Below, in pieces: positions 9,813 through 23,716 of a stretch of 64,000 nt of DNA (position 1 is its first letter; each line of letters opens with the position of its first letter). The notes under the pieces are model-generated. The model was not told the DNA's origin, did not search any database, and was given only the letters and a program-made list of their open reading frames with translations. Origin of the DNA: Calothrix sp. NIES-4105 (GTDB lineage Bacteria > Cyanobacteriota > Cyanobacteriia > Cyanobacteriales > Nostocaceae); assembly GCF_002368415.1 (NCBI RefSeq), contig NZ_AP018290.1:7555717-7619716 (forward strand), given 5' to 3'. The translations under genes and the position numbers were made by a program.

Positions 9813-9828
9813 TAATAGGTACCTATTA
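9813..9828. promoter_or_regulatory. 16-bp palindrome between two divergent start codons
   Basis: TAATAGGTACCTATTA is a perfect palindrome lying exactly between the ATG of the small ORF (9810, minus) and the ATG of the histidine kinase (9828, plus). Each strand presents AGG as a weak ribosome binding site. It could be a dimeric regulator site or an RNA hairpin that masks translation starts. Function is inferred only from position and symmetry. Confidence 0.45.
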
Positions 9829-11744
9829 TGTTGATTCGGTTAGTAATTTATACAGAGTCTTTAAGTATACCGAATTTAATTAATGTTATAAGCTATCGAA
9901 GTTGGGCTGTATTTTTATATACAATAGTTATGTTTGTGTGTGGAGTTGTAGCTACTAAGCTGTGGTTACTAAAATCTATAAGTAAAACTTTTTACAACTT
10001 ACTTCCCCATTCGTTAACCGAACAATGGCAAGCATACGATGAATGGGTGATTCAAACGAAAAAAATATTTAACACCATCGAAGCGCTGCGTCAAAGCGAT
10101 GAAAGGTTTCGAGTAATTTTTGAAGAAGCAGGGGTAGGAATTTCTCATACTAATATTGATGGACGTATTCTGCGAGCGAACCCAAAGTTTTGTCAGATAG
10201 TTGGGTATAGTTCTGATGAACTGCTGAATATGCGATTTCAAGATATCACTAATCCAACTGATTTATTGACCGAGCTATCACTACACCAAAAACTTTTAAA
10301 GTTAGAACAAACCAGCTATCATATCGAAAAGCGTTATATTCGTCGCGATGGTACTTTTGTTTGGGTAAAGTTGACTGTTTCGGTTATTTGCAACTCGAAC
10401 CGTGTACCAATTGAATTAATTAAAGTTATCGAAGATATTAGCGATAGAAAGCACACACAAGAAGCATTGAGACGAAGCGAAGAACGCTACCGTTCGCTAG
10501 TTGCTGCAACTTCGCAGATAGTATGTATAAGTGATGCTGATGGTAATTTAACTCAGATGTTGGCAGGCGCCGGCTATCGAGTTAAGGATATTGAAGGATT
10601 ACAGCAAGGTTGGGTAGAAAGAATTCATCCAGAAGACTTTGCGCGCGTCCAGCAAGTTTGGCAAGGAGCGCGCGGTAATAAAAGTTTTTTTGAAGTTGAG
10701 TATCGATTAATGAATACTGAAGGTGAATATCGGTATATGCAAACGCGCGCTGCTCCTGTGTTATCAGAAGATGGTAACGTGCGTGAGTGGGTAGCAGCAA
10801 TTACAGATATTTCCGTGCGTAAACAAGCAGAAGCAGAATTGCTTGCCTCAGAAAAACGTTGTCGTAAGTCAGCGCAAATAGCTCAACAGCAAGCCAAAAG
10901 ACTCAAAATAGCGATGTCCAAACTAGCTGATACGCAAGCACAGTTAATTCAAAACGAAAAAATGTCTTCTTTAGGACAACTTGTTGCAGGTGTTGCCCAT
11001 GAAATTAATAACCCCGTCAACTTTATATATGGTAACATCAACCCGATTCGCGAATATGCTCAAGACTTGCTGAACTTAGTTTCACTATATAAGCAACACT
11101 ATCCTGAACCTGTAAAAGAAGTAGGCGCCGTCGTCAAAGCGATTGACCTTGACTTTATTCTAGAAGACTTTCCCAAAATTTTAGCCTCAATGAAGATAGG
11201 CGCCGACCGTATTTTACAAATAGTTCTATCACTGCGGAACTTCTCGCGACTCGACGAAGCTGAGATCAAGGCAGTTGATATTCACGAAGGAATTAATAGT
11301 ACACTGCTGATTTTGCAAAGTCGTCTTAATAATAATCAATTAAACACCCCGGCAATTGAAGTTGTCAAAGAATATGGCGCCATCGGAAAAATAGAATGCT
11401 ATGCAGGACAACTCAATCAAGTATTTATGAATATTCTTAACAACGCTATCGACGCAATTTACGACTCAGTACACCAAGGCAAAATTATTATAAACACATC
11501 TTTGAATAATCAAAACCAAGTCGTTATTACCATTACAGATAACGGTTGCGGAATGACCGAAGAAACTCAGCGCAAAATTTATGACCCCTTTTTTACCACA
11601 AAACCCGTAGGTTCAGGTACCGGGTTAGGAATGGCTGTCAGTTACAAAATTATACAAAAGCACGGTGGCAAGCTCGAATGTTCTTCTATGCTTGGACAAG
11701 GTACAAAATTTACCATACTGTTGCCAAAACATGGTGTGGGGTGA
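9828..11744 (+). CDS. PAS-domain sensor histidine kinase
   Basis: The 638-residue protein is a membrane-associated sensor. A hydrophobic segment spans residues ~28-48. Two PAS/PAC sensor modules cover ~90-210 and ~215-335 (FEEAGVGISHTN, DISDRKHTQ, EYRYMQTRAAP, DISVRKQAE), and a short coiled coil follows. The HisKA H-box is GVAHEINNPVNF. The ATPase domain has the N-box NILNNAIDAI and the glycine boxes DNGCGM and GTGLGMAVS. All catalytic boxes look intact, so autophosphorylation is expected. No receiver domain or response regulator gene is adjacent, so its partner is unknown. Confidence 0.92.
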   Translation: MLIRLVIYTESLSIPNLINVISYRSWAVFLYTIVMFVCGVVATKLWLLKSISKTFYNLLPHSLTEQWQAYDEWVIQTKKIFNTIEALRQSDERFRVIFEEAGVGISHTNIDGRILRANPKFCQIVGYSSDELLNMRFQDITNPTDLLTELSLHQKLLKLEQTSYHIEKRYIRRDGTFVWVKLTVSVICNSNRVPIELIKVIEDISDRKHTQEALRRSEERYRSLVAATSQIVCISDADGNLTQMLAGAGYRVKDIEGLQQGWVERIHPEDFARVQQVWQGARGNKSFFEVEYRLMNTEGEYRYMQTRAAPVLSEDGNVREWVAAITDISVRKQAEAELLASEKRCRKSAQIAQQQAKRLKIAMSKLADTQAQLIQNEKMSSLGQLVAGVAHEINNPVNFIYGNINPIREYAQDLLNLVSLYKQHYPEPVKEVGAVVKAIDLDFILEDFPKILASMKIGADRILQIVLSLRNFSRLDEAEIKAVDIHEGINSTLLILQSRLNNNQLNTPAIEVVKEYGAIGKIECYAGQLNQVFMNILNNAIDAIYDSVHQGKIIINTSLNNQNQVVITITDNGCGMTEETQRKIYDPFFTTKPVGSGTGLGMAVSYKIIQKHGGKLECSSMLGQGTKFTILLPKHGVG

Positions 11745-12386: not shown

Positions 12387-13109
12387 ATGAAAAGCCGGGT
12401 ATTAAAAATAGAATATTTATCAAATACTGAACAAGATGCTATGTATTCGTTGCTTGACAACCATTTTGAGGGTGTAAGGCGAGACGTTTTTGAATCAGAT
12501 TTGAGCAATAAGAATTGGGTTATTCTTCTTGAAGACGAGACGCAACAACTCAAAGCTTTTTCAACATTATTAATATACACTACCCAGTTTGAAGGGGAGA
12601 CTATTAATATAGTATATTCAGGAGACACGATTGTAGACCCTAGCGCTTGGTCGAGTTCTACACTCTCTCGCACTTGGATAACTTCAGTTCAGAAAATACG
12701 GCGCCAGTACCCGGAAGGTAAGTTATACTGGCTATTAATTTCTGGTGGTTTCCGTACTTATAGATTTCTGCCAGTATTTTGGCAAGAGTTTTATCCGCGA
12801 TATGATAAAGCAACACCTGCTCATATTTCTGAGTTGATGCACTTTTTAGGATATCAGCGCTTTGGTGAGTGCTATAAACATATAGCAGGAATAGTCCGTT
12901 TCCAACATCCCCACGTACTCCGTGATCGGTTAAAAGAAATTCCATCAGAACGTTTACAAGACCCACATATTGAATTCTTTGCCAAACAAAACCCACGCTA
13001 TATTCAAGGTGATGAGTTAGTTTGTTTAGCTGAAATTAGTGAAGAAAACTTAACAAAAGCAGGTCGAAGAATCTGGTTTTCAGATTTAGTCATTAATGCG
13101 CGCGTTTGA
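12387..13109 (+). CDS. Putative GNAT-like acyltransferase, first gene of oxidative cluster
   Basis: The 240-residue protein has a mixed alpha/beta pattern with AFSTLLIYTTQFEGE and NIVYSGDTIVDP strands. These resemble the central sheet of GNAT-type acyltransferases, but no textbook acetyl-CoA loop is certain. It is cytosolic, with no signal peptide or membrane helix. It opens a series of nine further same-strand genes for oxygenases, a ferredoxin and acyl-processing enzymes, so an acyl-transfer step in the same pathway is plausible. Assignment is weak; it may be an unrelated cyanobacterial family. Confidence 0.5.
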   Translation: MKSRVLKIEYLSNTEQDAMYSLLDNHFEGVRRDVFESDLSNKNWVILLEDETQQLKAFSTLLIYTTQFEGETINIVYSGDTIVDPSAWSSSTLSRTWITSVQKIRRQYPEGKLYWLLISGGFRTYRFLPVFWQEFYPRYDKATPAHISELMHFLGYQRFGECYKHIAGIVRFQHPHVLRDRLKEIPSERLQDPHIEFFAKQNPRYIQGDELVCLAEISEENLTKAGRRIWFSDLVINARV

Positions 13110-13172
13110 GGGGATAAAGCCTATATCATGTAATGAAATATTACTTTTAAAACGTCTTTGTACAAATACTAT

Positions 13173-14180
13173 ATGGCATCCCATATTATATCCAACCAAA
13201 AAACTAAGATATTCAATAACTCAGAATATTTTATTGAAGGATGGTATTGGGCAATACCCTCATATCATCTTAAAATAGGTCAAGTCAAACCTGTAACTCT
13301 CATGGGTCGAGACTTAGCAATATATCGAAGAAAAAATAATCAAGTTACTGCTGTTGATGCATATTGTCCACATATGGGTGCCCATTTAGCAGAGGGTAAA
13401 GTCGAAGGTAACGCACTAAGGTGTTTTTTCCACAACTGGAAATTCGATGCAGACGGGACATGTATAGAGGTACCTTGTATAAACTCAGCATTACCCGTGA
13501 AAATAAATACTTGGCAAACAGCAGAAAAGTATGGAATGATTTGGGTCTGGACAGGTAAGCACCTACCGAGTCCTTTACCTTTCGTTCCTGAGTTAGAAGA
13601 CGAAGAGTGTGATAGTGCTTTAGCAAAAAAATTTATTAAAAACTGTCACCCCAATGTTGTCATGGTTAATGCAATAGATGCTCACCATTTCAACACAGTT
13701 CATAACTTCCCTGTGAAAATAGTCTTTGACAAACAAGAATACCAAAACGCGATTACCTTTGCTAACACCACAAGAGGAGGAGAAAATTCATTATTTCTCA
13801 AATTAATTCGTCCCTTTTATAAAGATGCTGTTACTTATAATATGTGTTACTGGTATGGAAGCACAGGTGTAGTTACAGTTGGCCCCGACTTCTTGCACTT
13901 CCACATCATGTTCACTTTACGACTATTAGAAGGAGGCAAAACCGAAGGACAAACAATATTAATTACTAAAAAACGCGCGGGAATACTTGGTTGGATTTTT
14001 AATAGAATAGTATTAACTTTAACTAATATAGTTGGTAATTACTTTGCCAAAGGTGATACTAAAATTTTCCAAACTATCAAATTTGATTTAAAAACACCAA
14101 CTAAAGCAGACAACTCCATCATCCAATTTATCCACCACGCAGAAAAACAGAAACCTTTAGCGTGGAAAACTTGGGAATAA
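13173..14180 (+). CDS. Rieske 2Fe-2S non-heme iron oxygenase (1 of 3)
   Basis: The 335-residue protein has a Rieske cluster motif C65-x-H67-x16-C84-x2-H87 and a mononuclear iron motif D169-x2-H172-x4-H177. Both active centres of a terminal oxygenase therefore look intact. The catalytic half differs from classical naphthalene-dioxygenase types and is closer in style to KshA/desaturase-like Rieske enzymes. The substrate is unknown. The ATG at 13173 is preferred over a TTG 15 bp upstream. Electrons could come from the ferredoxin at 17699. No reductase gene is in the cluster. Confidence 0.88.
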   Translation: MASHIISNQKTKIFNNSEYFIEGWYWAIPSYHLKIGQVKPVTLMGRDLAIYRRKNNQVTAVDAYCPHMGAHLAEGKVEGNALRCFFHNWKFDADGTCIEVPCINSALPVKINTWQTAEKYGMIWVWTGKHLPSPLPFVPELEDEECDSALAKKFIKNCHPNVVMVNAIDAHHFNTVHNFPVKIVFDKQEYQNAITFANTTRGGENSLFLKLIRPFYKDAVTYNMCYWYGSTGVVTVGPDFLHFHIMFTLRLLEGGKTEGQTILITKKRAGILGWIFNRIVLTLTNIVGNYFAKGDTKIFQTIKFDLKTPTKADNSIIQFIHHAEKQKPLAWKTWE

Positions 14181-14190
14181 CTATATTAAC

Positions 14191-14266
14191 CTCTTTCCTT
14201 CGTGTCCTTTGTGTCTTTGTGGTTTAAATAAAAGAACCACAAAGGCACGAAGGACACAAAGAGAAG
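14191..14266. repeat. Inverted repeat of the GTGTCCTTTGTGTCTTTGTGG family
   Basis: A ~34-bp left arm and an imperfect right arm are separated by an A+T-rich loop and could form a long hairpin between two cluster genes. Related copies are at 16446-16512, 19021-19080 and 30225-30284. Confidence 0.88.
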
Positions 14267-14287
14267 AAAGTATTTGTCACTCTTTTT

Positions 14288-15202
14288 ATGAATTATAAAA
14301 TTACTGGTTTTGATATACCACACACTTCTAAAGAAGACAAACTGCGTCGAATCTTAGACTCAGCACTTGAGAGTAAAATAGGAAAAATAAAACCTTCTAT
14401 CACAGGCAACTTAATTTACTGGAACGCTGAACATTTTGATTTACATAAAGTCGAAATATTCACAGCTAGCACTCCAGAAGAGCAAACTATAATTTTAGAA
14501 CTTTGTAACCAAACACTACTAGAAGAAGCTTACTTCATTGAAAAAGCAGGTATTGGTTACATGGCAAAAATGGTCATGCTCGCAGAAACCACCGAAGAAC
14601 GAATGCTTTACGCATTATTTAGTGCAGATGAAGTAACACACCTCGCACAAATAAGTTCTTTTTTAACAAACCCCGAACTAGTTAGTACAAATAACGCCTT
14701 CTTACACTTACTAGCTGATGTTGCAGAAACATCTGACAAATCTGTACTAATTTTTGTTCTACAAGTAATACTCGAAGGATGGGGTTTAACTCATTACCGT
14801 AACCTAGCGAAAAACTGCCAACACACAGAACTAAAAGCAGTATTACAAAGTTTTCTAGAAGACGAAAGTCGTCATCATGCTACCGGAGTTAGGTTATGCG
14901 AACAAATTTCAATAGAACATCAAACTCAAAAAACCATTATTGAAATACTTGCATCCTTCCTCCAAATGGTACAAGTCGGACCACAAGGAGTTGTGACAGC
15001 AGTCGAGCAAGTCCTTGGTAGTTTATCACGTCAGCAGAAAATAACCGTATTTCAACAACTAGGCGCCGAATCTCATAGTAGCACTCGTTTAAATTTACTA
15101 CGCAACCTAATCACAAACCCCCAGACAACAGCAATAGTTCAAGAACTAGAAGAACGCAACGCTTTCACACCGTTTTCACCACAGCAGTGTACAACATCGT
15201 AA
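14288..15202 (+). CDS. Ferritin-like diiron protein
   Basis: The 304-residue all-helical protein carries a ferritin-like metal-ligand pattern: Glu79/80, E115-x2-H118, E163 and E193-x2-H196 (SADEVTHL and EDESRHH). This is the paired E...ExxH arrangement of four-helix-bundle diiron oxidases and oxygenases. It sits between a Rieske oxygenase and an AurF-like enzyme, so a redox role in the same pathway is likely. It could hydroxylate, desaturate or N-oxygenate a substrate, or be a structural partner. The specific family was not recognised. Confidence 0.72.
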   Translation: MNYKITGFDIPHTSKEDKLRRILDSALESKIGKIKPSITGNLIYWNAEHFDLHKVEIFTASTPEEQTIILELCNQTLLEEAYFIEKAGIGYMAKMVMLAETTEERMLYALFSADEVTHLAQISSFLTNPELVSTNNAFLHLLADVAETSDKSVLIFVLQVILEGWGLTHYRNLAKNCQHTELKAVLQSFLEDESRHHATGVRLCEQISIEHQTQKTIIEILASFLQMVQVGPQGVVTAVEQVLGSLSRQQKITVFQQLGAESHSSTRLNLLRNLITNPQTTAIVQELEERNAFTPFSPQQCTTS

Positions 15203-15229
15203 GTAGGGCTATGCCTCACATACATAACT

Positions 15230-16381
15230 ATGAATACAATTACAGAAAACCAAAAAGTCAACCGTAGACTAGAAATAAACCACAAACGTAACAAACAGCA
15301 AGACCACACAGCATTACTAGATGCTGCATCTGCTGCTTTCCGTTATGAAGACTGTAAAAATGAATACTGGAACCCTGAAGAATACTCGTTAATGTATGGC
15401 ACTCCCCTGTGGGAGCAAGCATCTTCTAGCCAACGCATTATATTAAATCAACTTTACTGGGTAGCATATTACTCACAAATCATCTCGGCAGAAATTGCCA
15501 CTATATATTTTAACCAAACGAGTGCAGCCGGACTTTACGCCCAAGAAGATTTTCGCATAGTTTGTGACACCCTTGATTTAGAATCGAGTCAAGAACGCGC
15601 GCACATCAATGCTTTTAAAACAGTTGCCAACGAAGTAGAAGCAGCACTATTTGGTAAACGTATATTTAGTTATGGGATGCGTGGTCCATTTGCGGAAACA
15701 ATGGTTTTTGCCGACACCAACTACTTCAAGCGCAAATGGAAAGAACTACAATTAAAAGCTTTCGGGTTACTTTCAGCAGATAATACCTTTTTAGCTTGTC
15801 AGTATTTTACAGTGCGCGGAGTTAGAACACTCAACGGCAAACTCGTACAGCACAAGCTAAGTAACTACTACCAAAAACATCCTAACCAAGAAGAGGCGCC
15901 TATTCCAGCCAAAATATCTTACTATCACTTCATGGATGAGAGTTTCCACTTTAACAGTTCGACAATTATCTCTCATGATGTGATTCATTGTCTAAAACCA
16001 CCAACTGAATTTGAAAAACTAGTAGCTAACCTAGGTTTACACGGTTGTCAAAAAGACCATTATCACTTTTCTGTAGCTATCAACGGCATTTTTTGGTATG
16101 ACCCCGCTTTATATAAAGCAGTTTACCTTTTGTTGTGTTCACCTGTCTTTAATATGAGCGGCGCCGAAGCAAAAGAAATGATGCAACGCTGTTTCACTCA
16201 AGAAAGCGAAGGACTACATCGTAGCTACAATACACATACTGAAGCAATGGAATCTTATAAAGTGTATCTAGAAAAACTTGATTATGTATGGAAGAGTAAT
16301 AAAGAAATGTCTTTGATGGGGTCTAATAATATTTCTAAATATTTAGCACATCAAAAACAAAAAATAAAACAGTTTATATAA
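15230..16381 (+). CDS. AurF-like diiron oxygenase
   Basis: The 383-residue protein shows E88, E122-x2-H125 and H233-x3-E237-x2-H240. The spacing matches AurF-type p-aminobenzoate N-oxygenases, which have an E-x(28-37)-ExxH repeat and a diagnostic extra His four residues before the second ExxH Glu. Such enzymes oxidise aryl or alkyl amines, or hydroxylate carrier-bound substrates. It starts 27 bp after the preceding diiron gene and is likely co-transcribed. The overall sequence is divergent, so the reaction and substrate are inferred only from metal ligands and neighbours. Confidence 0.65.
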   Translation: MNTITENQKVNRRLEINHKRNKQQDHTALLDAASAAFRYEDCKNEYWNPEEYSLMYGTPLWEQASSSQRIILNQLYWVAYYSQIISAEIATIYFNQTSAAGLYAQEDFRIVCDTLDLESSQERAHINAFKTVANEVEAALFGKRIFSYGMRGPFAETMVFADTNYFKRKWKELQLKAFGLLSADNTFLACQYFTVRGVRTLNGKLVQHKLSNYYQKHPNQEEAPIPAKISYYHFMDESFHFNSSTIISHDVIHCLKPPTEFEKLVANLGLHGCQKDHYHFSVAINGIFWYDPALYKAVYLLLCSPVFNMSGAEAKEMMQRCFTQESEGLHRSYNTHTEAMESYKVYLEKLDYVWKSNKEMSLMGSNNISKYLAHQKQKIKQFI

Positions 16382-16445
16382 AATCCCCCCTTAATAAGGC
16401 TGGGCGTGTACACACATCTTTAATAATTCCCCCTTACACTCCCCC

Positions 16446-16512
16446 CTTTGTGCCCTTTGTGTCTTTGTGGTTTATCTCTTTAAAGAACCACAAAGACACA
16501 AAGGACACGAAG
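16446..16512. repeat. Inverted repeat of the GTGTCCTTTGTGTCTTTGTGG family
   Basis: Near-perfect arms (CTTTGTGTCTTTGTGGTT and its complement) flank a ~12-bp loop between the AurF-like gene and the second Rieske gene. Confidence 0.88.
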
Positions 16513-16590
16513 AAAGAGAAGAAAAAGAGACTTGTGTGTACACGGTAGCTTCCACGCGGGGGGTTGGGGGGATCAAACCAAGGTTTAACA

Positions 16591-17613
16591 ATGAAAACAA
16601 AAATCTTCAACAATCCAAACATTATCGCCAAAGGATGGTACATAGCTTGCTTAAGTAAAGACATTCTTCCTGGCAAAGCAAAATCATTAACATTATGCGG
16701 ACAAAAAATTGTTATTTTCCGTACAGAAACTGGTCAAGTCCGCGCGCTTAATGCCTACTGTCCCCACTTAGGAACCGACCTAGGAATAGGCAAAGTAGAT
16801 GGTAACTTTATTCGTTGTTTCTTCCATCATTGGGCATTTGACGGAGAAGGAAACTGTCGAGATATTCCTTGCCAAAAAGAAATTCCAGTAAAAGCCAAAT
16901 TACAAGCTTACACAACAGATGAAAAATATGGTTTTATTTGGGTTTACCCAGATAGTCAGGCGCCACAAGGAGTAGTAGAATTTGATGAACTCAAAGGTAA
17001 ATCATTGATGACAATGTATGATAAACCCTTTGAACGCGGTTGTCATCACCATATTTGTATGATGAACGGTATCGATGCTCAACATTTAAAAACGGTGCAT
17101 AAATTAAACATCGATATGAAATTGTCTCTACAAGCAAATGCTGTAGGTGATGTAATAGACTTTACTCTCAGTGGTGAATTTCCCAATACAAATAAGAGAG
17201 AAAAACTCGCGCGGCAAATTTTAGGAAACTACTACGAGTACACAATGAGGTACGCACATGGATGTATTGGACTTTTAACAATAATGAAGAAAGTTAAATT
17301 CGTGGCACCATTACACATGATTTATGCTTACACTCCTATAAATGAAGGTAGGACGCGCGTTCAACCTATATATATAGCAGAAAAAAGAAAAGGCATATTC
17401 GGCGCCTTGAAAACAAAAATATTACTTTTACTAACAAAAGCCGCTTATTACTTTCTTAGACACGAAGACGGCATGATTTACGACAATATTAACTATAACC
17501 CCAACACACTCTTAAACATCGACGAACCCCTTGTCAAATACATGGAGTACGTCAACCAACTCCAACCCTCAATATGGTCTTTAGCAACGGATGAGAGCGG
17601 ATGTAACGGATAG
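16591..17613 (+). CDS. Rieske 2Fe-2S non-heme iron oxygenase (2 of 3)
   Basis: The 340-residue paralogue of the 13173 enzyme starts KTKIFNNPNIIAKGWYIA, much like the first copy's KIFNNSEYFIEGWYWA. It has C57-x-H59, C76-x2-H79 and D162-x2-H165-x4-H170, so both iron sites look intact. The ATG at 16591 follows AAGG; an earlier start inside the upstream repeat is unlikely. The last residues (ATDESGCNG) are encoded by an inverted-repeat element at 17585, so the native C-terminus may have been replaced. Confidence 0.88.
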   Translation: MKTKIFNNPNIIAKGWYIACLSKDILPGKAKSLTLCGQKIVIFRTETGQVRALNAYCPHLGTDLGIGKVDGNFIRCFFHHWAFDGEGNCRDIPCQKEIPVKAKLQAYTTDEKYGFIWVYPDSQAPQGVVEFDELKGKSLMTMYDKPFERGCHHHICMMNGIDAQHLKTVHKLNIDMKLSLQANAVGDVIDFTLSGEFPNTNKREKLARQILGNYYEYTMRYAHGCIGLLTIMKKVKFVAPLHMIYAYTPINEGRTRVQPIYIAEKRKGIFGALKTKILLLLTKAAYYFLRHEDGMIYDNINYNPNTLLNIDEPLVKYMEYVNQLQPSIWSLATDESGCNG

Positions 17614-17692
17614 TTGATTAGTTTCTAACATATCCTGAAGAAGACACTCTTTATAAAAAACAAATCATCCGTTACATCCGTTATATCCGTTG
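17585..17692. repeat. Inverted repeat with GGATGTAACGGAT arms
   Basis: The arms at 17585-17612 and 17667-17692 are imperfect inverted copies built from ATCCGTTA-type units, with a ~54-bp spacer. The left arm contributes the end of the second Rieske gene, and the right arm ends 6 bp before the ferredoxin start. It may form an mRNA hairpin affecting ferredoxin translation. Confidence 0.75.
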
Positions 17693-17698
17693 CCAAAA

Positions 17699-17992
17699 AT
17701 GACTACGAATCCTTGTAAAATCACCTTCAACCCAAAAAAACATCCAGAAATATATCTTAATCAAAACGATAATTTATCAGAACACTTAACAGTCAAAAAT
17801 TCACCAGTGTTATTCGGTTGTCGTACCGGAATATGCGGAACCTGCCTTGTATCTATAAAAGGTGACATCCCCCCTCCAAACGAAGAAGAAAAAGAAATCT
17901 TAGAAATCTTCGCACCAGGAAACCATCAAGCAAGACTAGCTTGTCAAATACAACTTACAAATGATATTGAAATATCTTTAATTGAAACATGA
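17699..17992 (+). CDS. 2Fe-2S plant-type ferredoxin
   Basis: The 97-residue protein has the plant-type cluster motif C41-x4-C46-x2-C49 and a fourth ligand C82 (CRTGICGTC and RLACQI). It is a small soluble electron carrier. Its stop overlaps the start of the third Rieske gene by 4 bp (ATGA), showing translational coupling. It is therefore the probable electron donor for that oxygenase and perhaps for the other cluster oxygenases. The ATG at 17699 is preferred over the TTG at 17690. Confidence 0.9.
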   Translation: MTTNPCKITFNPKKHPEIYLNQNDNLSEHLTVKNSPVLFGCRTGICGTCLVSIKGDIPPPNEEEKEILEIFAPGNHQARLACQIQLTNDIEISLIET

Positions 17993-19011
17993 AATATGAG
18001 GATTTTTGGTACATAGTTTGTGAAAGCAAACAACTCAAGGCAAACACCGTCCTATCTCGGACAGTACTAAACGAGTGGTTAGCAATATTCCGTGACCCAG
18101 ACGGGAAACCTGTAGCATTACGCGATAAATGTATGCACAGAAACAGTCGCTTATCCAAAGGTAAAGTTTGTCAAGGTCAAATACAATGTCCATACCACGG
18201 TTGGGTTTATGACAAAAACGGTAAAGTTGTAGCTATCCCTTCAGAAGGAAAAAACCCGCGCGTTTGTAATGTACGTCAAACTATCACCTACAACACCACA
18301 GAACAAGACGGTTTTGTTTATGTGAGGTTATCACAAAACCCATCCGAAGATTTTAAACCTTTTTCAATGCCGAACTACCAAAAACCAGGATGGGAAACAG
18401 TGCGTGTGATAAACCGTTTTCAAAACACCGTCACTAACTGCGCTGAAAATTTTATAGACATTCCCCATACAGTCAGCGTTCATCCTGGGGTTTTTCGCAA
18501 ACCTCGCTCCTCAAAATTAGAAATGTCAGTCCAAAGACAAAACGGTTCAGTTATAGCAAAATATTACAACGAAACAAATAATCTTGGATGGTTCGCGCGC
18601 TTTCTCAACCGCAAAGCTTCAGAAATTCATCATATAGATACTTTTCACATGCCCAATATAACCAGCGTAGAATACGACATGGGCAAACATCGAAAACTAT
18701 TTATTACCAGTCAATCAATTCCAGAAACAGAAAACTCAACACTAGTATATACCGATGTCACATACAACTACGGCATCTGGAACAAACTCGCGCGTCCATT
18801 TGTTTATTGGACAGCCCAATATATTATCCATCAAGATATCGAAGCATTAAAAATCCAATCAGAAGTAATTCAAAAATACGGCGCCCAATTTGCCAACACA
18901 CCTGCTGATACCATCCATGTATTCGTCGAGTCCATCCGTAACACCATCACCGCAGGAGAAGACCCTCGTAAACTACCAGATAAATCTGTAAACGTCGAAT
19001 TTTGGGTCTAA
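17989..19011 (+). CDS. Rieske 2Fe-2S aromatic-ring-hydroxylating-type oxygenase (3 of 3)
   Basis: The 340-residue protein has the classical Rieske motif C48-M-H50 ... C67-P-Y-H70-GW and the catalytic motif N150-C..D157-x2-H160-x4-H165. This is closer to canonical vanillate-demethylase/phenoxybenzoate-type alpha subunits than the two paralogues upstream. Likely roles are hydroxylation or O/N-demethylation of the pathway intermediate. It is coupled by a 4-bp overlap to the ferredoxin gene. Confidence 0.92.
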   Translation: MKYEDFWYIVCESKQLKANTVLSRTVLNEWLAIFRDPDGKPVALRDKCMHRNSRLSKGKVCQGQIQCPYHGWVYDKNGKVVAIPSEGKNPRVCNVRQTITYNTTEQDGFVYVRLSQNPSEDFKPFSMPNYQKPGWETVRVINRFQNTVTNCAENFIDIPHTVSVHPGVFRKPRSSKLEMSVQRQNGSVIAKYYNETNNLGWFARFLNRKASEIHHIDTFHMPNITSVEYDMGKHRKLFITSQSIPETENSTLVYTDVTYNYGIWNKLARPFVYWTAQYIIHQDIEALKIQSEVIQKYGAQFANTPADTIHVFVESIRNTITAGEDPRKLPDKSVNVEFWV

Positions 19012-19020
19012 CAAATCTTT

Positions 19021-19080
19021 TCTTCTCTTCTTTGTGTCCTACCCTGCGGGAAATCCTCCGGATTATGTGCCTTTGTGGTT
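19021..19080. repeat. Dispersed repeat, CCTACCCTGCGGGAAATCC type
   Basis: A ~55-bp sequence containing TTTGTGTCCTACCCTGCGGG is almost identical, in reverse complement, to the element at 30225-30284 that interrupts a DUF4253 gene. It is a composite of the TTTGTGTCC...CTTTGTGGTT arms and a CCCGCAGGG-rich centre. Confidence 0.88.
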
Positions 19081-19086
19081 ATATAT

Positions 19087-19812
19087 ATGATAATCTTGTT
19101 CACTTTTATAACTTTACTGTCTCTAACCCTAAAAAATCATCATCCCATCACATTTTTTATCACAAAAAATCGTCAAGACTGGCTTTTAGATTTTATTGGC
19201 TTATTCTTCCAAGGAATAATCATCCCTGTTTTGCAAATCACATTAGTCTTTCAACTTTATAACTACCTACTCCCCAACTTAAAATCAACACTCTCATTAC
19301 ATCCATTAATAGCATTTTGCCTCAGCTTTATTCTTGTAGACTACCTGTACTACTGGAATCATCGTTTATTCCACACCCCTTTATTATGGTCAGTGCATAA
19401 AGTTCACCACACAGTAACAGCAATGGATGTAGTAGGAACATCGCGCAATACTTTATGGACAAGCTTGTTAATACTGTATTTGTGGGTTCATCCTTTATTT
19501 ATTTATTTCTTACAAGACCCAACATGGTATATATTCGGCGCCAGTTTAACATCAGCTTTAGACTTATGGCGCCATAGTATATTTACACCACAACCAAAAT
19601 CTATAATTTATCGTTTACTTTCACCCTGGTTAATTTTACCGCAAGACCATGCATGGCATCACGCGCGTAATTATAGTGGCGGTAATTATGGAGCAAACTT
19701 TAAAATATGGGATAAAATACACGGAACATATTGCCATAATGAATTAAAGCCAGAGATTTTAGGCACTATATCAAATCTGAGTTTAACTCAAAAACTATTT
19801 TTACCCTTTTAA
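19087..19812 (+). CDS. Sterol desaturase / fatty-acid hydroxylase superfamily membrane protein
   Basis: The 241-residue protein has about four membrane helices and the His clusters of the membrane diiron hydroxylase superfamily: H92-x3-H96 (HRLFH), HKVHH at 104-108 and a C-terminal HAWHHARN. These enzymes hydroxylate or desaturate lipids or other hydrophobic chains. The position between the third Rieske gene and an acyltransferase suggests action on an acyl chain or terpenoid made by the cluster. An upstream GTG at 19075 is possible, but ATG 19087 is preferred. Confidence 0.88.
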   Translation: MIILFTFITLLSLTLKNHHPITFFITKNRQDWLLDFIGLFFQGIIIPVLQITLVFQLYNYLLPNLKSTLSLHPLIAFCLSFILVDYLYYWNHRLFHTPLLWSVHKVHHTVTAMDVVGTSRNTLWTSLLILYLWVHPLFIYFLQDPTWYIFGASLTSALDLWRHSIFTPQPKSIIYRLLSPWLILPQDHAWHHARNYSGGNYGANFKIWDKIHGTYCHNELKPEILGTISNLSLTQKLFLPF

Positions 19813-19827
19813 TTATCTTTCATAACT

Positions 19828-20466
19828 ATGAATACAGAACCTATAAAATCAGAGATTAATAAAGGCATGACTTTTCTAAGTACAATGCTTGCTTTTTTCC
19901 CAGCCTTAGTGATGCTGATGATATTTGTCTCATTTCTGGGAATTTGCTATAAACCAGGAATTTTCACTATCATAACCCTGCTCTTTTCTATTTATATCTT
20001 TCCTTTACTAGTTTATCAAATACACAATAAATTTTTCCCGATACAAGAAGGCATTAGTTATCTTTGTGGAAGAGAATATTCACCGTGGTGGGGCAGTCAT
20101 CAAATCCAATCTATATATATCACCTTTCCTGTATTTGAAGCAATCTTACGCCTAATACCAGGAGCATTTTCTTCATGGCTAAGATTATGGGGTTCATCAG
20201 TTGGGAAAAATATTTACTGGACACCGAAATTAGAAATAGCCGATAGAGGATTAATAGAAGTAGGTGATAATGTTGTGTTTGGTCATGGAGTTGGAATATA
20301 TGCTCATATTATCAAACCCAAAAAAGAAAATTTACTTTTATATGTCAAAAAAGTAAAAATTGGTAGCAATGTTTTTATCGGCGCCTGCAATAACATCGCA
20401 CCAGGAGTAAATATTAACAATAACACCTACATACCCATATCTGCCACCTTTCCCATAGTAAAATAA
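19828..20466 (+). CDS. Membrane-anchored hexapeptide-repeat acyltransferase
   Basis: The 212-residue protein has two N-terminal membrane helices (about residues 14-40 and 42-65). A C-terminal left-handed beta-helix with hexapeptide-like turns follows (VGKNIYW, LIEVGDNVVFGHGVGIYAH, VKIGSNVFIGACNNIAPGV). Such proteins transfer acyl groups. It starts 15 bp after the hydroxylase gene, so the two are probably one transcript. The C-terminus is short compared with full LbetaH transferases and is followed at once by a hairpin. Confidence 0.75.
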   Translation: MNTEPIKSEINKGMTFLSTMLAFFPALVMLMIFVSFLGICYKPGIFTIITLLFSIYIFPLLVYQIHNKFFPIQEGISYLCGREYSPWWGSHQIQSIYITFPVFEAILRLIPGAFSSWLRLWGSSVGKNIYWTPKLEIADRGLIEVGDNVVFGHGVGIYAHIIKPKKENLLLYVKKVKIGSNVFIGACNNIAPGVNINNNTYIPISATFPIVK

Positions 20467-20469
20467 GTG

Positions 20470-20490
20470 GAACAGGCATCCTGCCTGTTC
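20470..20490. repeat. Hairpin GAACAGGCA/TGCCTGTTC
   Basis: A 9-bp perfect inverted repeat with a 3-bp loop lies between the acyltransferase stop (20466) and the GH3 start (20503). It is related to the other 'GGCAGGATGCC' hairpins in the window and may modulate downstream expression. Confidence 0.85.
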
Positions 20491-20502
20491 AATATTGAAT
20501 TT

Positions 20503-21993
20503 ATGCGTATACTTATACAACTTTTTGCTAAACTCTTTGCTCCTGCTACAAATAGATTTTATCGCGCGCTTCAAAACCCCGAACTCGCACAAAAAAATCT
20601 ACAAAAAGAACTTTTTCAACGTTTTACTAAAAGCGAATATGGAAAATCATTAAATATCACATCTTTAAATAACTGGCGCCAAATACCTATTGTTGAATAC
20701 CAAGATATCCAAACTAAACTCAACCAACTCACTCATGAACCAATTATTTTTTATGAGAAAACATCAGGAAGTCGTAGTGCAGCAAAATTAATTCCTTATA
20801 CTCAATCATTGCGTCGTTCGTTTAATCATATGTTTTGTGTATGGGCACATGATTTAATTGTTAATGGTTCCAAGTTCTCTACTGGAAAAATTTATTTCTG
20901 TATTTCACCACAGCTAACCCAACCGACAGATGTTACAACTCTAGAAGATGACTCCCAATATCTTGACGGTTGGTTACGCCTTGCTCTAAGTCCTTTTTTA
21001 GTATCACCTTCAGGAATACAGCATATACACAATGCTGAAGAATTTAAACACAAGCTTTCCCAGGCGCTATTACTTGCAGAAGACCTAGAAATAATCTCAA
21101 TATGGAGTCCTAGTTTTCTGAAAGTTATGCTTGACTATATACAGTCTCATCATAAACAACTAGCTTCTGAGTTAAAAGCTAAGATATCAGCCGAACGTTA
21201 TAACTTACTACTAGAAACTCCAGAATATAGTAAACTCTGGCGCCAGCTAAAACTTATTTCATGTTGGGACAGCGCTAACGCTGCGGATGGCGCCGAAATG
21301 CTAAGAAAACTTTTCCCAGATGTATTAGTGCAGGGTAAGGGACTTTTAGCAACCGAGGCGCCTATGACTATTCCCCTTATCGCAGCAAACGGATGTGTGC
21401 CAATGCTAGATGAGGTGTTTTTCGAGTTTGAAGACAAAAAAGGTAATATATACCTTCTTCACGAACTTCAAAAAGGAGAAGTATACGAAATTATTATTTC
21501 TCAAAAAGGTGGATTATACCGTTACCGTATTAAAGACCGAGTTCGCGTTACCCATTTCTACCAAGCAACACCCTGTCTTGAGTTTATCGGACGCACAAAA
21601 GAAGTTAGTGATTTAGTTGGGGAAAAACTACACTCTGAGTTCGTCCGTCAAGTACTTAATAATTTACCTCTTACAGAAACCAGCTTTAAAAGTTTCATAC
21701 CTACACACTTCCCAACAGCTAGGTATATCCTTTTACTAGATATGGCAAACACAGATATTAATGAACTTGCCCAAAAATTAGATATATTGCTGCAACAGTC
21801 TCACCAATATCGTCATGCAAGACTTTTAGGACAACTGGCGCCACCCCAAATTATAGTAAACCCGCGCGTCGCAGAAATTCTTAGCTTGCACAAAACGCGC
21901 TCAGGTAAAAAATGGGGTGATTTAAAACACGATATTCTTGGTACGGCGCCTATTAGCAAAGAATTATTAAGCGAATTGAATAATTTTTTTTAA
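20503..21993 (+). CDS. GH3-family acyl-acid amido synthetase-like enzyme
   Basis: The 496-residue protein belongs to the GH3 adenylating family, first known from plant auxin and jasmonate conjugation. It shows a phosphate-binding-type loop TSGSRS at residues 87-92, followed by KLIPYT, and later EVFFEF, YRYRIKDRVRV and CLEFIGRTKEVSDLVGEKL. These enzymes activate a carboxylate with ATP and join it to an amine. It closes the cluster and could form an amide between the oxidised acid and an amino compound. The ATG at 20503 is chosen because the upstream GTG lies within a hairpin. Confidence 0.85.
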   Translation: MRILIQLFAKLFAPATNRFYRALQNPELAQKNLQKELFQRFTKSEYGKSLNITSLNNWRQIPIVEYQDIQTKLNQLTHEPIIFYEKTSGSRSAAKLIPYTQSLRRSFNHMFCVWAHDLIVNGSKFSTGKIYFCISPQLTQPTDVTTLEDDSQYLDGWLRLALSPFLVSPSGIQHIHNAEEFKHKLSQALLLAEDLEIISIWSPSFLKVMLDYIQSHHKQLASELKAKISAERYNLLLETPEYSKLWRQLKLISCWDSANAADGAEMLRKLFPDVLVQGKGLLATEAPMTIPLIAANGCVPMLDEVFFEFEDKKGNIYLLHELQKGEVYEIIISQKGGLYRYRIKDRVRVTHFYQATPCLEFIGRTKEVSDLVGEKLHSEFVRQVLNNLPLTETSFKSFIPTHFPTARYILLLDMANTDINELAQKLDILLQQSHQYRHARLLGQLAPPQIIVNPRVAEILSLHKTRSGKKWGDLKHDILGTAPISKELLSELNNFF

Positions 21994-22020: not shown

Positions 22021-22671
22021 TTAACCTGCTCTGACGGCGGTTACAACAGAATCTATCAGTAAATCTCCTGTTTTGACACGTAAATCTTGAATTGCTTGAT
22101 GAAAAACTGTAACAGCATCTTGCGGTTTGGTTTGCCTGCCCATTTTGAATGCGTCGGATACAACCATATCGCAAGAATCTGCTGATAAAACTCGACGACA
22201 TATTAAATCAAAATCTTTTACACTAATAAGATGAGCCATTAGCTGTTCCAAGGTGATGACTCGTTTTTGTAACCTTTGCTTAACGCTATCAAAGTTAGAT
22301 GAAGCTAATGTTTTTAAAAATCGCTTGTCTGATGTAAGTAAATAAAAATCTTGCTCTAATTCAGTAGCTGCAACAAGTAAAGCTTCACCTACATCGATAC
22401 CATCAGTAGACGCGAGCATTTCAAATTCAATAGTATTACTGATAGCAGATTGGTCAATAATATTACAAGCATTTGCTATTTGTTTGGCTCTTTCTATACT
22501 TGTCGCTCTAAAGTTTCGACTAATTTTCTGGGAACCACTAAAAACCTTTGCCGCAGTTGGCAAAATCCTGATATTTTCACTTTTAATATTTAAGCTAGCA
22601 AGCATTTCCCAGAATAATTGGTAAGCCGCTAGCTTCAAAATTATATCATTGTCAGTAAAATATAATAGCAA
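22021..22671 (-). CDS. PIN-like domain protein paired with a metallopeptidase
   Basis: The 216-residue protein begins LLYFTDNDIILKLAAY. An acidic FTDNDI near the N-terminus, GIDVGEALLV in the middle and LLTSDKRFLKTL later resemble the scattered acidic residues of PIN nucleases, with TSDKR the most recognisable. It starts with TTG preceded by AGGAG at about 7 bp, 37 bp behind the metallopeptidase stop, so the two form an operon. A role as the toxin or effector controlled by the peptidase is inferred from this pairing. Confidence 0.6.
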   Translation of the reverse strand: MLLYFTDNDIILKLAAYQLFWEMLASLNIKSENIRILPTAAKVFSGSQKISRNFRATSIERAKQIANACNIIDQSAISNTIEFEMLASTDGIDVGEALLVAATELEQDFYLLTSDKRFLKTLASSNFDSVKQRLQKRVITLEQLMAHLISVKDFDLICRRVLSADSCDMVVSDAFKMGRQTKPQDAVTVFHQAIQDLRVKTGDLLIDSVVTAVRAG

Positions 22672-22708
22672 AGACTTGCTCCTACCTCACTCCTTTACAC
22701 AGGAGAAA

Positions 22709-23692
22709 TTATACTCCTGTAACAAGTCTAAGATATTCTTCGCTGTCTGCATCTAACATTTCCCAATCTAGCTGCTTGTCTAGATAGCTATTAATCTTGA
22801 CCGATGCATTTATAACAGGCTCAAGAATTTTGAGGGCGCCACCTCCAATTTTCCATTCATTCCTCTGCAAAGCATAATTTAATACCAAGGCACTGGCGTC
22901 TACCGCGTCTTTATTAGCTAACTGACGCACCATTCGTGTTAGTTGTATTGAGTCACCCATTTGACCCCATGTATATTTATTTTGTTCACCAAAAAGAATC
23001 GTTTCGGCAAACTCATTTGCTTCTTGCTCTTCAAAGTCTTGTGCTTCTTTCGTTATTTTTTCATCAATCAAAACACCATCTTGAACGTGACCCTTGGCAA
23101 AATGACCTATTTCATGAAGAATTATGAAAAGTAAGTAAGCAGAGTACTTTCGATTAGAGCTAAGTACGATGACTGGACGATTATTAATTATTGCTGCCAT
23201 ACCGTCCATCTTAAGAGTTGTTTTTGGGAACTCAGAGAAATGAACCACTGGTAGACCAATGTCCCAGCAATAATCAAGAACAGCATCAAGGTTTATACAA
23301 GGATTCTTACTTAAAATTGCGTGACTAATTTTGGATGCGTCCTCTGGTATACCTTGAAAAGGTTTTATACAGGCGTGTGCGACCATTTCCGCAACGCGAG
23401 TTGCTAGCCCTTGAGCAACAATCAATCGATTTTCGCTACTTTTCTGCATTTTCTTAAATCTAGGGCTAGTAATTTGTTTAAAAGTAATGGGGGCATCAGG
23501 GTCAAGAACAGATGCCATATTCAGCCCTAAACGTTTCGCAATACGCCCTGCTGCCTCTAAAACCGCTACAGGGTTGTTTTCAAGCGATCCATCCCACCAT
23601 TCTGGTAGTGCTTTTTCTTGAATGAACCTTGGTGGCAATCCTATCGCATACAGCCGCTTGTACAGCGTTGGCATTTCAAGGGTCTTACTCAT
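22709..23692 (-). CDS. ImmA/IrrE-type metallo-endopeptidase
   Basis: The 327-residue protein has an HEIGH zinc site at residues 193-197 followed by a downstream acidic cluster (EEQEANEFAETIL). This matches ImmA/IrrE peptidases, which cleave repressors in mobile-element and stress responses. The first ~90 residues have no clear helix-turn-helix. ATG 23692 is preceded by AAGGAGG, a strong ribosome binding site, so the longer start at 23716 is rejected. It is the first gene of a two-gene unit with a PIN-like protein. Confidence 0.8.
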   Translation of the reverse strand: MSKTLEMPTLYKRLYAIGLPPRFIQEKALPEWWDGSLENNPVAVLEAAGRIAKRLGLNMASVLDPDAPITFKQITSPRFKKMQKSSENRLIVAQGLATRVAEMVAHACIKPFQGIPEDASKISHAILSKNPCINLDAVLDYCWDIGLPVVHFSEFPKTTLKMDGMAAIINNRPVIVLSSNRKYSAYLLFIILHEIGHFAKGHVQDGVLIDEKITKEAQDFEEQEANEFAETILFGEQNKYTWGQMGDSIQLTRMVRQLANKDAVDASALVLNYALQRNEWKIGGGALKILEPVINASVKINSYLDKQLDWEMLDADSEEYLRLVTGV

Positions 23693-23716
23693 ATTTCCCT
23701 CCTTGCCTAAAATCAA

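Follow-up and report, generated by a model that had tools for sequence, protein, structure and literature searches.

The locus and its proteins

Here, we analyze a cluster of ten genes in a 64,000-nucleotide stretch of DNA from the cyanobacterium Calothrix sp. NIES-4105 (NZ_AP018290.1, positions 7,555,717 to 7,619,716; hereafter the window), which lies on contig 1 of a genome of 12.0 Mb (G000). The cluster encodes three Rieske oxygenases, a homolog of CylC-type dimetal-carboxylate halogenases, and a GH3-type synthetase, and its genes are inherited as one unit. All ten open reading frames (ORFs) are located on the plus strand and span positions 12387 to 21993 (Table 1). Computed from longest-ORF starts, the gaps from g1 to g10 measure 48, 107, 27, 182, 76, -4, 63, 15, and 0 bases, with g6 and g7 overlapping by 4 bases. 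g2 is listed with a TTG start; an ATG a few codons further 3' is likelier. A terminator scan gave no plus-strand match in any gap between the cluster genes, and its three terminator-like matches on this strand lie 5' of g1 (12045) and within coding sequence (12769 and 15487). Promoter-like matches were not above those in shuffled sequences (29 versus a mean of 34.1). The closest titled relatives are from Calothrix and Dulcicalothrix.

Table 1. Features of the cluster and its surroundings, in window positions
Feature	Position	Strand	Description
g1	12387..13109	+	240 aa; possible GNAT-fold acyltransferase; weak family call
g2	13158..14180	+	Rieske oxygenase; PF00355 79.4 bits
g3	14288..15202	+	Ferritin-like; PF13668 (Ferritin_2) 26.2 bits vs cut-off 24.7, just over
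g4	15230..16381	+	CylC-type dimetal-carboxylate halogenase homolog; QExxH 121-125, HxxDExxH 233-240, E88
g4 codon CAG, residue 207	15848..15850	+	Gln at the NocO E252/AurF E196 position
g5	16564..17613	+	Rieske oxygenase; PF00355 81.8 bits; likely start ATG near 16591
g6	17690..17992	+	[2Fe-2S] ferredoxin; Fer2 PF00111 33.3 bits, over cut-off
g7	17989..19011	+	Rieske oxygenase, VanA-type C-terminal domain; PF00355 87.2, PF19112 32.8 bits
g8	19075..19812	+	Membrane fatty-acid hydroxylase/sterol desaturase family; PF04116 87 bits, over cut-off
g9	19828..20466	+	Hexapeptide-repeat protein; perhaps membrane-anchored acyltransferase; PF00132 23.8 vs cut-off 27
g10	20467..21993	+	GH3 acyl-adenylating amide (or ester) synthetase; likely start ATG near 20503
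Short interspersed repeat, first copy	14186..14262		g2-g3 gap; copies 83-91% identical
Short interspersed repeat, second copy	16434..16513		g4-g5 gap
Upstream frame	9828..11744		Taken, from reading the sequence, to be PAS/histidine-kinase-like
Downstream gene pair	22021..23716		Convergent; presumably resembles an ImmA/IrrE-PIN module (label by reading the sequence)

A first-pass annotation, made from the letters of this DNA, had listed ten same-strand genes and the kinds of protein that they encode. The ORFs and Pfam bear out this list, the labels AurF, Hexapep, and GNAT being weak. Rieske domains exceeded the Pfam cut-off in g2, g5, and g7, and the N, M, and C domains of GH3 were found in g10 (88.0, 64.8, and 29.1 bits versus 23.6). 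The motifs, described earlier as intact, are indeed widely kept among distinct homologs of more than 40% identity. The Rieske pattern CxH..CxxH was present in 94/95, 75/75, and 78/78 homologs of g2, g5, and g7, respectively, and D-x2-H-x3/4-H in 95/95, 75/75, and 78/78. All 88 g6 homologs retained the ferredoxin Cys pattern. GH3 motif I was detected in 57 and GLYRYRxxD in 51 of the 59 g10 homologs, and g10 of the window carries TSGSRSAAK, LLATE, and GLYRYRIKD. Among solved structures, g10 matched plant GH3 enzymes, whose substrates are indole-acetic, benzoic, and jasmonic acids. As the first-pass annotation had stated, polyketide or peptide synthases are missing: the Pfam scan of the ten proteins detected no carrier (PP-binding), polyketide synthase (PKS), or nonribosomal peptide synthetase (NRPS) domain.

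The remaining proteins are less clearly placed. The GNAT match of g1 was below threshold (14.8 versus 25 bits), only 3 of 19 homologs matched PF13527 at E<=1, so that scanning these homologs did not strengthen the GNAT identity, and a PDB profile search gave two weak matches (E 0.22 and 1.8). The same search with g3 returned a single, implausible match (E=0.04); its homolog alignment shows conserved E80, E85, E115xxH118, E163, and E193xxH196. For g9, the match to PRK10092 was far below threshold (32.1 versus a cut-off of 314), and the hexapeptide-containing model NRPS_term_dom was likewise sub-threshold (24.3 versus 423 bits). Three specific identities were rejected on NCBIfam scores: OlsE for g8 (52.6 versus 475 bits for the equivalog), OlsH for g10 (23.6 versus 620 bits), and the 4beta-methylsterol monooxygenase SdmA, the best NCBIfam match of g2, g5, and g7 (71-80 versus 600).

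Co-inheritance of the cluster genes

The occurrence of g1, g4, g7, and g10 was screened in 198 related genomes, that of the window included. Strong matches were found in 52 genomes for g4 (E<=1e-150), 52 for g7 (E<=1e-80), 51 for g10 (E<=1e-99; 57 at 1e-20), and 58 for g1 (E<=1e-40; 59 at 1e-10). All four genes were present in 50 genomes and none in 139; the nine genomes with some of them are G025, G031, G045, G056, G099, G131, G146, G153, and G175. Since the assemblies of G025 and G056 are fragmented, the absence of a gene there is possibly an artifact. g1 was detected in all 52 g7-positive and all 51 g10-positive genomes. Co-retention did not depend on proximity: in G009, G092, G064, G111, G015, and G152 the genes are far apart, by more than 2 Mb in G064 and G111, which show the widest dispersal, and are nevertheless all retained.

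From 148 relatives found, 80 loci, many of which end at contig ends, were kept and named. All ten genes (>40% identity) are present in 23 of them. The commonest orders are g5-g1-g2-g3-g4-g6-g7-g8-g9-g10 (12 loci) and g1-g2-g3-g4-g5-g6-g7-g8-g9-g10 (11 loci), the position of g5 being variable, in other genomes 5' of g1 and adjoining an Mpo1-like gene. Gene order is largely conserved in Calothrix, Nostoc, Planktothrix, Oscillatoria, Laspinema, Okeania, and Leptolyngbya, among others. When the phylum was sampled evenly, 21 of 386 genomes carried cluster-type g4 (E<=1e-100). The recurrence of gene set and order in many genomes is more than chance. Thus, the ten genes are one inherited unit, a well-supported unity to which the GH3 gene g10 and g1 belong as newly recognized members. 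This agrees with the one pathway proposed in the first-pass annotation. Genes scattered singly in relatives had been named there as an argument against it, which is not what we found in the 198 genomes.

At one locus (L083), the cluster lies between two related genes of transposase type (4559-5785 and 14696-15916). The first, the one covered by the Pfam scan, is an IS605 OrfB/TnpB gene.

Relation to described clusters

In the first-pass annotation, no described system with this gene set was known. The set matches, however, two published descriptions. Eusebio et al. (2021, PMC8406957) reported 'Rieske-containing' clusters as the largest class of CylC-encoding clusters (n=36 of 95), which are orphan, occur chiefly in Nostocales and Oscillatoriales, and contain one CylC homolog together with two to four Rieske proteins, acyltransferases, and, in most cases, a sterol desaturase family protein, without a neighboring carrier protein. 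These authors suggested carrier-free substrates from fatty acid metabolism and considered that some CylC homologs may perform other oxidations. The window cluster conforms to this class, with three Rieske proteins, g4 as the single CylC homolog, g8 as the sterol desaturase family protein, and no PP-binding domain in any of its ten proteins, the last in agreement with the carrier-free remark. Two other types described in this work also occur among our loci. L084 and L085, with a GGDEF/EAL protein beside g1-g4, fit the PriA-containing Synechocystis type (diguanylate cyclase/phosphodiesterase, ring-hydroxylating dioxygenase, and ferritin-like protein, the rest dispersed), a match judged on the GGDEF/EAL protein and g1-g4; L086-L090, L092, and L093 fit the nitronate-monooxygenase type, for which one such protein was scanned.

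The second description is 'cluster f' (PMC4284462), with the order hypothetical, Rieske, hypothetical, hypothetical, fed6, pobA, sterol desaturase, hypothetical. By annotation and order, this equals g1-g2-g3-g4-g6-g7-g8-g9, leaving g5 and g10 outside cluster f. By position, g6 corresponds to fed6 (ssl2559), the comparison with ssl2559 being one of annotation and not of sequence. On the grounds of incomplete segregation, fed6 was reported to be essential for photoautotrophic growth of Synechocystis, and in some strains, e.g., Nostoc PCC 7120, it occurs without cluster f (Table 1 of PMC4284462). The available parts of PMC4284462 gave no link from cluster f to CylC, GH3, or natural products, and neither they nor those of PMC8406957 connected the two cluster descriptions. 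The window cluster is likewise not described in the available parts of PMC10401708, PMC12871659, and PMC7024214.

GH3 has 0 occurrences in the main text of PMC8406957, and the membership of g10 is added by the present comparison. A bacterial precedent is OlsH, a GH3-type N-acyl-ornithine synthetase joining fatty acids to an amino acid (PMC12493201). g10 shares with OlsH the bacterial GH3 fold and the nucleotide motifs, and the ATP-dependent fatty acid-amine coupling by OlsH serves as a model for g10; unlike OlsH, g10 has no OlsI-like alpha/beta-hydrolase beside it among the ten proteins scanned with Pfam. In the openly licensed PMC literature, we found no paper joining a cyanobacterial Rieske cluster with GH3, which is a weak absence. 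To the account in PMC8406957, as far as its available parts extend, our comparison adds the membership of GH3 and g1, dispersed co-inheritance, an amidohydrolase/Mpo1-like extension, and a Gln signature in g4.

A fixed Gln in the active site of g4

The first-pass annotation had taken g4 for an AurF-like diiron oxygenase. Its match to the AurF Pfam family (PF11583) is below cut-off (18.7 versus 29.6 bits), and its motifs are those of the dimetal halogenases. In these enzymes, seven of nine active-site residues lie in QExxH and HxxDExxH, and Gln replaces Asp135 of AurF (PMC12101540). The g4 equivalents are Q121, E122, H125, H233, D236, E237, and H240, plus E88; the ninth position, E252 in NocO and E196 in AurF, is by alignment Gln207. 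g4 thus shares with CylC and NocO both motifs and the six proposed iron ligands, and differs from them by Gln at the E252 position and the lack of a nearby acyl carrier protein (ACP) (PMC12101540). A role as AurF-type N-oxygenase was rejected as unlikely on the basis of Gln121 for Asp135, Gln207 for Glu196, and the PF11583 score. A PDB profile search with g4 found no relative.

Both motifs with the six proposed ligands were present in all 105 cluster-type sequences (102 distinct ones, of 127 frames more than 50% identical to g4, and three from another class of the phylum). Position 207 is Gln in 105/105 of these and Glu in 37/37 other aligned CylC-type sequences (36 distinct; 31 frames from the best 30 loci and six from earlier loci, weaker matches being left unaligned). 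g4 is 29-42% identical to the CylC-type sequences of relatives over the matched parts. In the g4 tree, the cluster-type sequences form one complete group on a long stem (2.08) with a low support of 0.64, in a comparison that stood apart from the sequences of the Rieske/PriA clade of PMC8406957. The genome of the window encodes a second CylC-type homolog (L098, G000:C1:772567-773967), which retains Glu at the position of E252. From this Glu to the Asp in HxxDExxH there are 30 residues, a spacing identical to that of E252 and D282 in NocO (PMC12101540); in g4, Gln207 precedes this Asp by 29 residues, one fewer. The L098 gene adjoins a gene of an ACP-like group (c17).

These comparisons indicate a Gln variant of CylC homologs that is tied to this gene cluster. 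In NocO, the E252A variant binds iron and does not chlorinate, and Gln at this position was noted in 'a small subset' of homologs (PMC12101540). Gln207 alone is therefore compatible with g4 being a halogenase, and as judged from sequence, the Glu-to-Gln switch may keep, tune, or abolish halogenation. Because the ninth residue is Gln instead of Glu, we refer to g4 as a homolog and not as a halogenase.

An amidohydrolase/Mpo1-like extension

An Mpo1-like gene (PF06127) is located directly 5' of g5 on the same strand in 24 of the 80 named loci (61 of which have g5), overlapping g5 in 16 of the 24 as judged by longest-ORF starts. The family PF06127 takes its name from a 2-hydroxy-palmitic acid dioxygenase. 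Of the 24 loci, 18 also contain an amidohydrolase gene (PF07969), and in one genome (L184, identical to L256) both are fused into a single 731-aa frame beside g5. In the screen, the amidohydrolase was detected in 27 genomes (E<=1e-120), that is, in 27 of 52 g4-positive and 0 of 146 g4-negative genomes. In Calothrix sp. NIES-4105, it overlaps an Mpo1-like gene (L257; the pair is at G000:C1:10899522-10901643) 3.33 Mb from the cluster. Thus, among the genomes screened, the amidohydrolase is confined to g4-positive ones and is an unlinked extension of the unit that is newly recognized here. A search of the openly licensed PMC literature for papers linking Mpo1 with cyanobacteria was negative, again a weak absence.

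Further PF06127 proteins are encoded elsewhere in G000, G200, and G211. L097 (G000:C1:2003000-2018999) and L262 share a recurring set of a Rieske oxygenase, a small fatty-acid-hydroxylase-like protein, an Mpo1-like protein, and a protein of 467-468 aa that looks amidohydrolase-fold; L262 also holds a distant GH3 protein.

Distribution and neighboring genes

Among 18 genomes of a different class of the phylum, three also carry cluster-type g4, and in the g4 tree these three sequences are sister to all others. In one of these genomes (G200), all ten genes are recognizable at a single locus (L250) with 31-56% identity. This locus uses both strands, one for g1-g3 and the other for g4-g10. The three g4-carrying genomes of this class gave no PsaA/PsaB match, G227, which was part of this test, being only 73% complete; G000 and G217 did match. 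On a contig recorded under the title Planctomycetota (L196), g2, g3, g4, and g7 are present in a genome that also lacks PsaA/PsaB matches.

In 3 of 161 loci scanned (L104, L105, and L194), a DevB gene and two DevC-like genes adjoin g1; a lone DevB-like match of about 30% in L148 was excluded from this count. In L105, DevB (296 versus 129) and one DevC (319 versus 290) exceeded the NCBIfam cut-off and the other DevC was just under it (287), and in L104 DevA exceeded it (338.6 versus 295.8). The L194 genes were identified by BLAST only. L105 (G099) contains g1, g3, g7, g9, and g10, and L104 (G146) g1, g3, and g9.

In G031, G045, G131, G153, and G175, g1 lies near a more distant GH3 gene (30-34%). 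These mini-clusters include a desaturase-like gene in G031, G045, and G131 (L099-L101; Pfam FA_desaturase was scanned for the G045 copy only) and a Rieske oxygenase in G153 and G175 (L102 and L103). L102 and L103 also encode a 368-aa protein, the L103 copy of which had no Pfam or NCBIfam match when scanned. As a lead, this suggests that g1 and GH3 are an older core. In some Nostoc loci, a 568-aa protein is encoded between g1 and g2. It was considered as a pathway gene and dismissed, as it is presumably a SulP-type permease, judged by eye, and unrelated to the amidohydrolase.

A separate stretch of the same genome (G000:C1:4045000-4074999; L094 and L095) encodes three Rieske oxygenases beside frames that we take to be squalene/phytoene synthase, hopene cyclase, FAD oxidases, a methyltransferase, and a short-chain dehydrogenase/reductase. 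This stretch possibly specifies a triterpenoid pathway.

A proposed carrier-free acyl pathway and its alternatives

We propose, with a probability of roughly one in two, that the cluster encodes one co-inherited pathway acting on a free carboxylic acid that is not attached to a carrier, most probably a fatty acid or one of its derivatives, which would be oxidized, possibly chlorinated, and then conjugated by the GH3 enzyme. The sequence of oxidation and GH3 conjugation is plausible; the product and each individual reaction are what we infer. The ferredoxin g6 would be the electron donor of the three Rieske oxygenases and perhaps also of the diiron proteins; since no ferredoxin reductase is encoded in the cluster, g6 would have to rely on a housekeeping reductase. 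Oxygenation of unactivated C-H positions of the chain might fall to g3, g8, and the Rieske enzymes, and g4 would chlorinate or otherwise functionalize such positions. g10 is predicted to adenylate the carboxylate and to couple it to an amine or, less likely, an alcohol, and g1 and g9 may acylate amine or hydroxyl groups. The product would be inserted into the envelope or moved across it, and a few lineages would use a DevBCA-type exporter for this. For the amidohydrolase/Mpo1-like pair, we suggest an accessory step in which an N-acyl group is perhaps removed and a 2-hydroxy acid shortened by one carbon. The first-pass annotation had favored a small precursor; the CylC relatives, which act on fatty acyl chains, the fatty acid hydroxylase, the Mpo1-like partner, and the DevBCA-type genes at three loci indirectly favor an acyl chain.

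Several observations weigh against this proposal. The pairwise Fisher p-values for co-occurrence of g1, g4, g7, and g10 (2e-38 to 7e-47) overstate independence because the genomes are related, and the gene distance correlations of 0.92-0.98 (28 loci) stand without a housekeeping control. The accessory pair is not obligatory: at E<=1e-120, 25 of the 52 g4-positive genomes lack the amidohydrolase, the copy in G064, counted among the 27, is partial and contains a stop, and among 13 genomes tested, G018 and G128 had no PF06127 match. Two of the three exporter loci, L104 and L105, are without g4. g1 and g9 carry sub-threshold family matches only. g4 may not halogenate, because the E252A variant of NocO is inactive and g4 has Gln there. 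Finally, the putative fatty-acyl assignment rests on relatives and neighbors, and GH3 enzymes can act on aromatic acids.

We regard it as unlikely, though worth serious weight, that the cluster makes an envelope lipid or near-housekeeping compound, with g4 hydroxylating or desaturating C-H positions instead of halogenating. The reported essentiality of fed6 in the matching cluster f (PMC4284462) would fit such a role, as would the DevBCA-type genes adjoining g1; however, the product is not generally needed, given that 146 of 198 relatives are without cluster-type g4, the equation of ssl2559 with g6 is by annotation, and the occurrence of fed6 without cluster f in Nostoc PCC 7120 means that the ferredoxin may have another role. 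For g4 itself, replacement by Gln207 of the Glu that NocO requires for chlorination and the other oxidations allowed by Eusebio et al. (PMC8406957) speak for this alternative. Against it, Gln variants are counted among CylC homologs (PMC12101540), and loss of the carboxylate at position 207 would leave the putative chloride site open.

The plant GH3 structures matched by g10, with their indole-acetic, benzoic, and jasmonic acid substrates, raise the improbable case of a small aromatic or amino-acid-like precursor whose oxidation, perhaps at a nitrogen, is followed by conjugation to an amide. Aromatic acids are often the substrates of VanA_C-type Rieske oxygenases. Yet N-oxygenation is unlikely for g4, which lacks the AurF residues (Gln for both Asp135 and Glu196) and scores below the PF11583 cut-off, and acyl chains are suggested by the fatty acid hydroxylase, the kinship to CylC, and the Mpo1-like partner. 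We consider it very improbable that the Rieske enzymes and g8, the protein of the sterol desaturase family, tailor an isoprenoid (hopanoid, sterol-like, or carotenoid). In favor of this reading, each of the three Rieske proteins has SdmA as its best NCBIfam match, at scores far below cut-off, and L094 combines Rieske oxygenases with frames presumed to be isoprenoid genes, whereas no isoprenoid gene was recognized among the ten genes, neighbors at other loci being partly annotated.

Returning to the carrier-free acyl pathway, it is tempting to go further and speculate that Fed6, the orphan Rieske/CylC clusters, and bacterial GH3 belong to one ancient pathway within the cyanobacterial phylum that is independent of photosynthesis and makes an oxidized, chlorinated envelope acyl-amide lipid, with g4 as a distinct halogenase lineage marked by its fixed Glu-to-Gln switch and with the unlinked amidohydrolase/Mpo1-like step included. 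We consider this extended version a long shot.

While the gene set itself had been published before as an orphan cluster, the unlinked extension and the fixed active-site change are new. Our comparison joins three threads, fed6 essentiality, CylC-type enzymes, and bacterial GH3 amide synthetases, and thereby makes the cluster testable as a lipid pathway. It also names unlinked genes that knockout or heterologous-expression work should include. Gln versus Glu at position 207 provides a natural active-site comparison of what makes a diiron enzyme halogenate.

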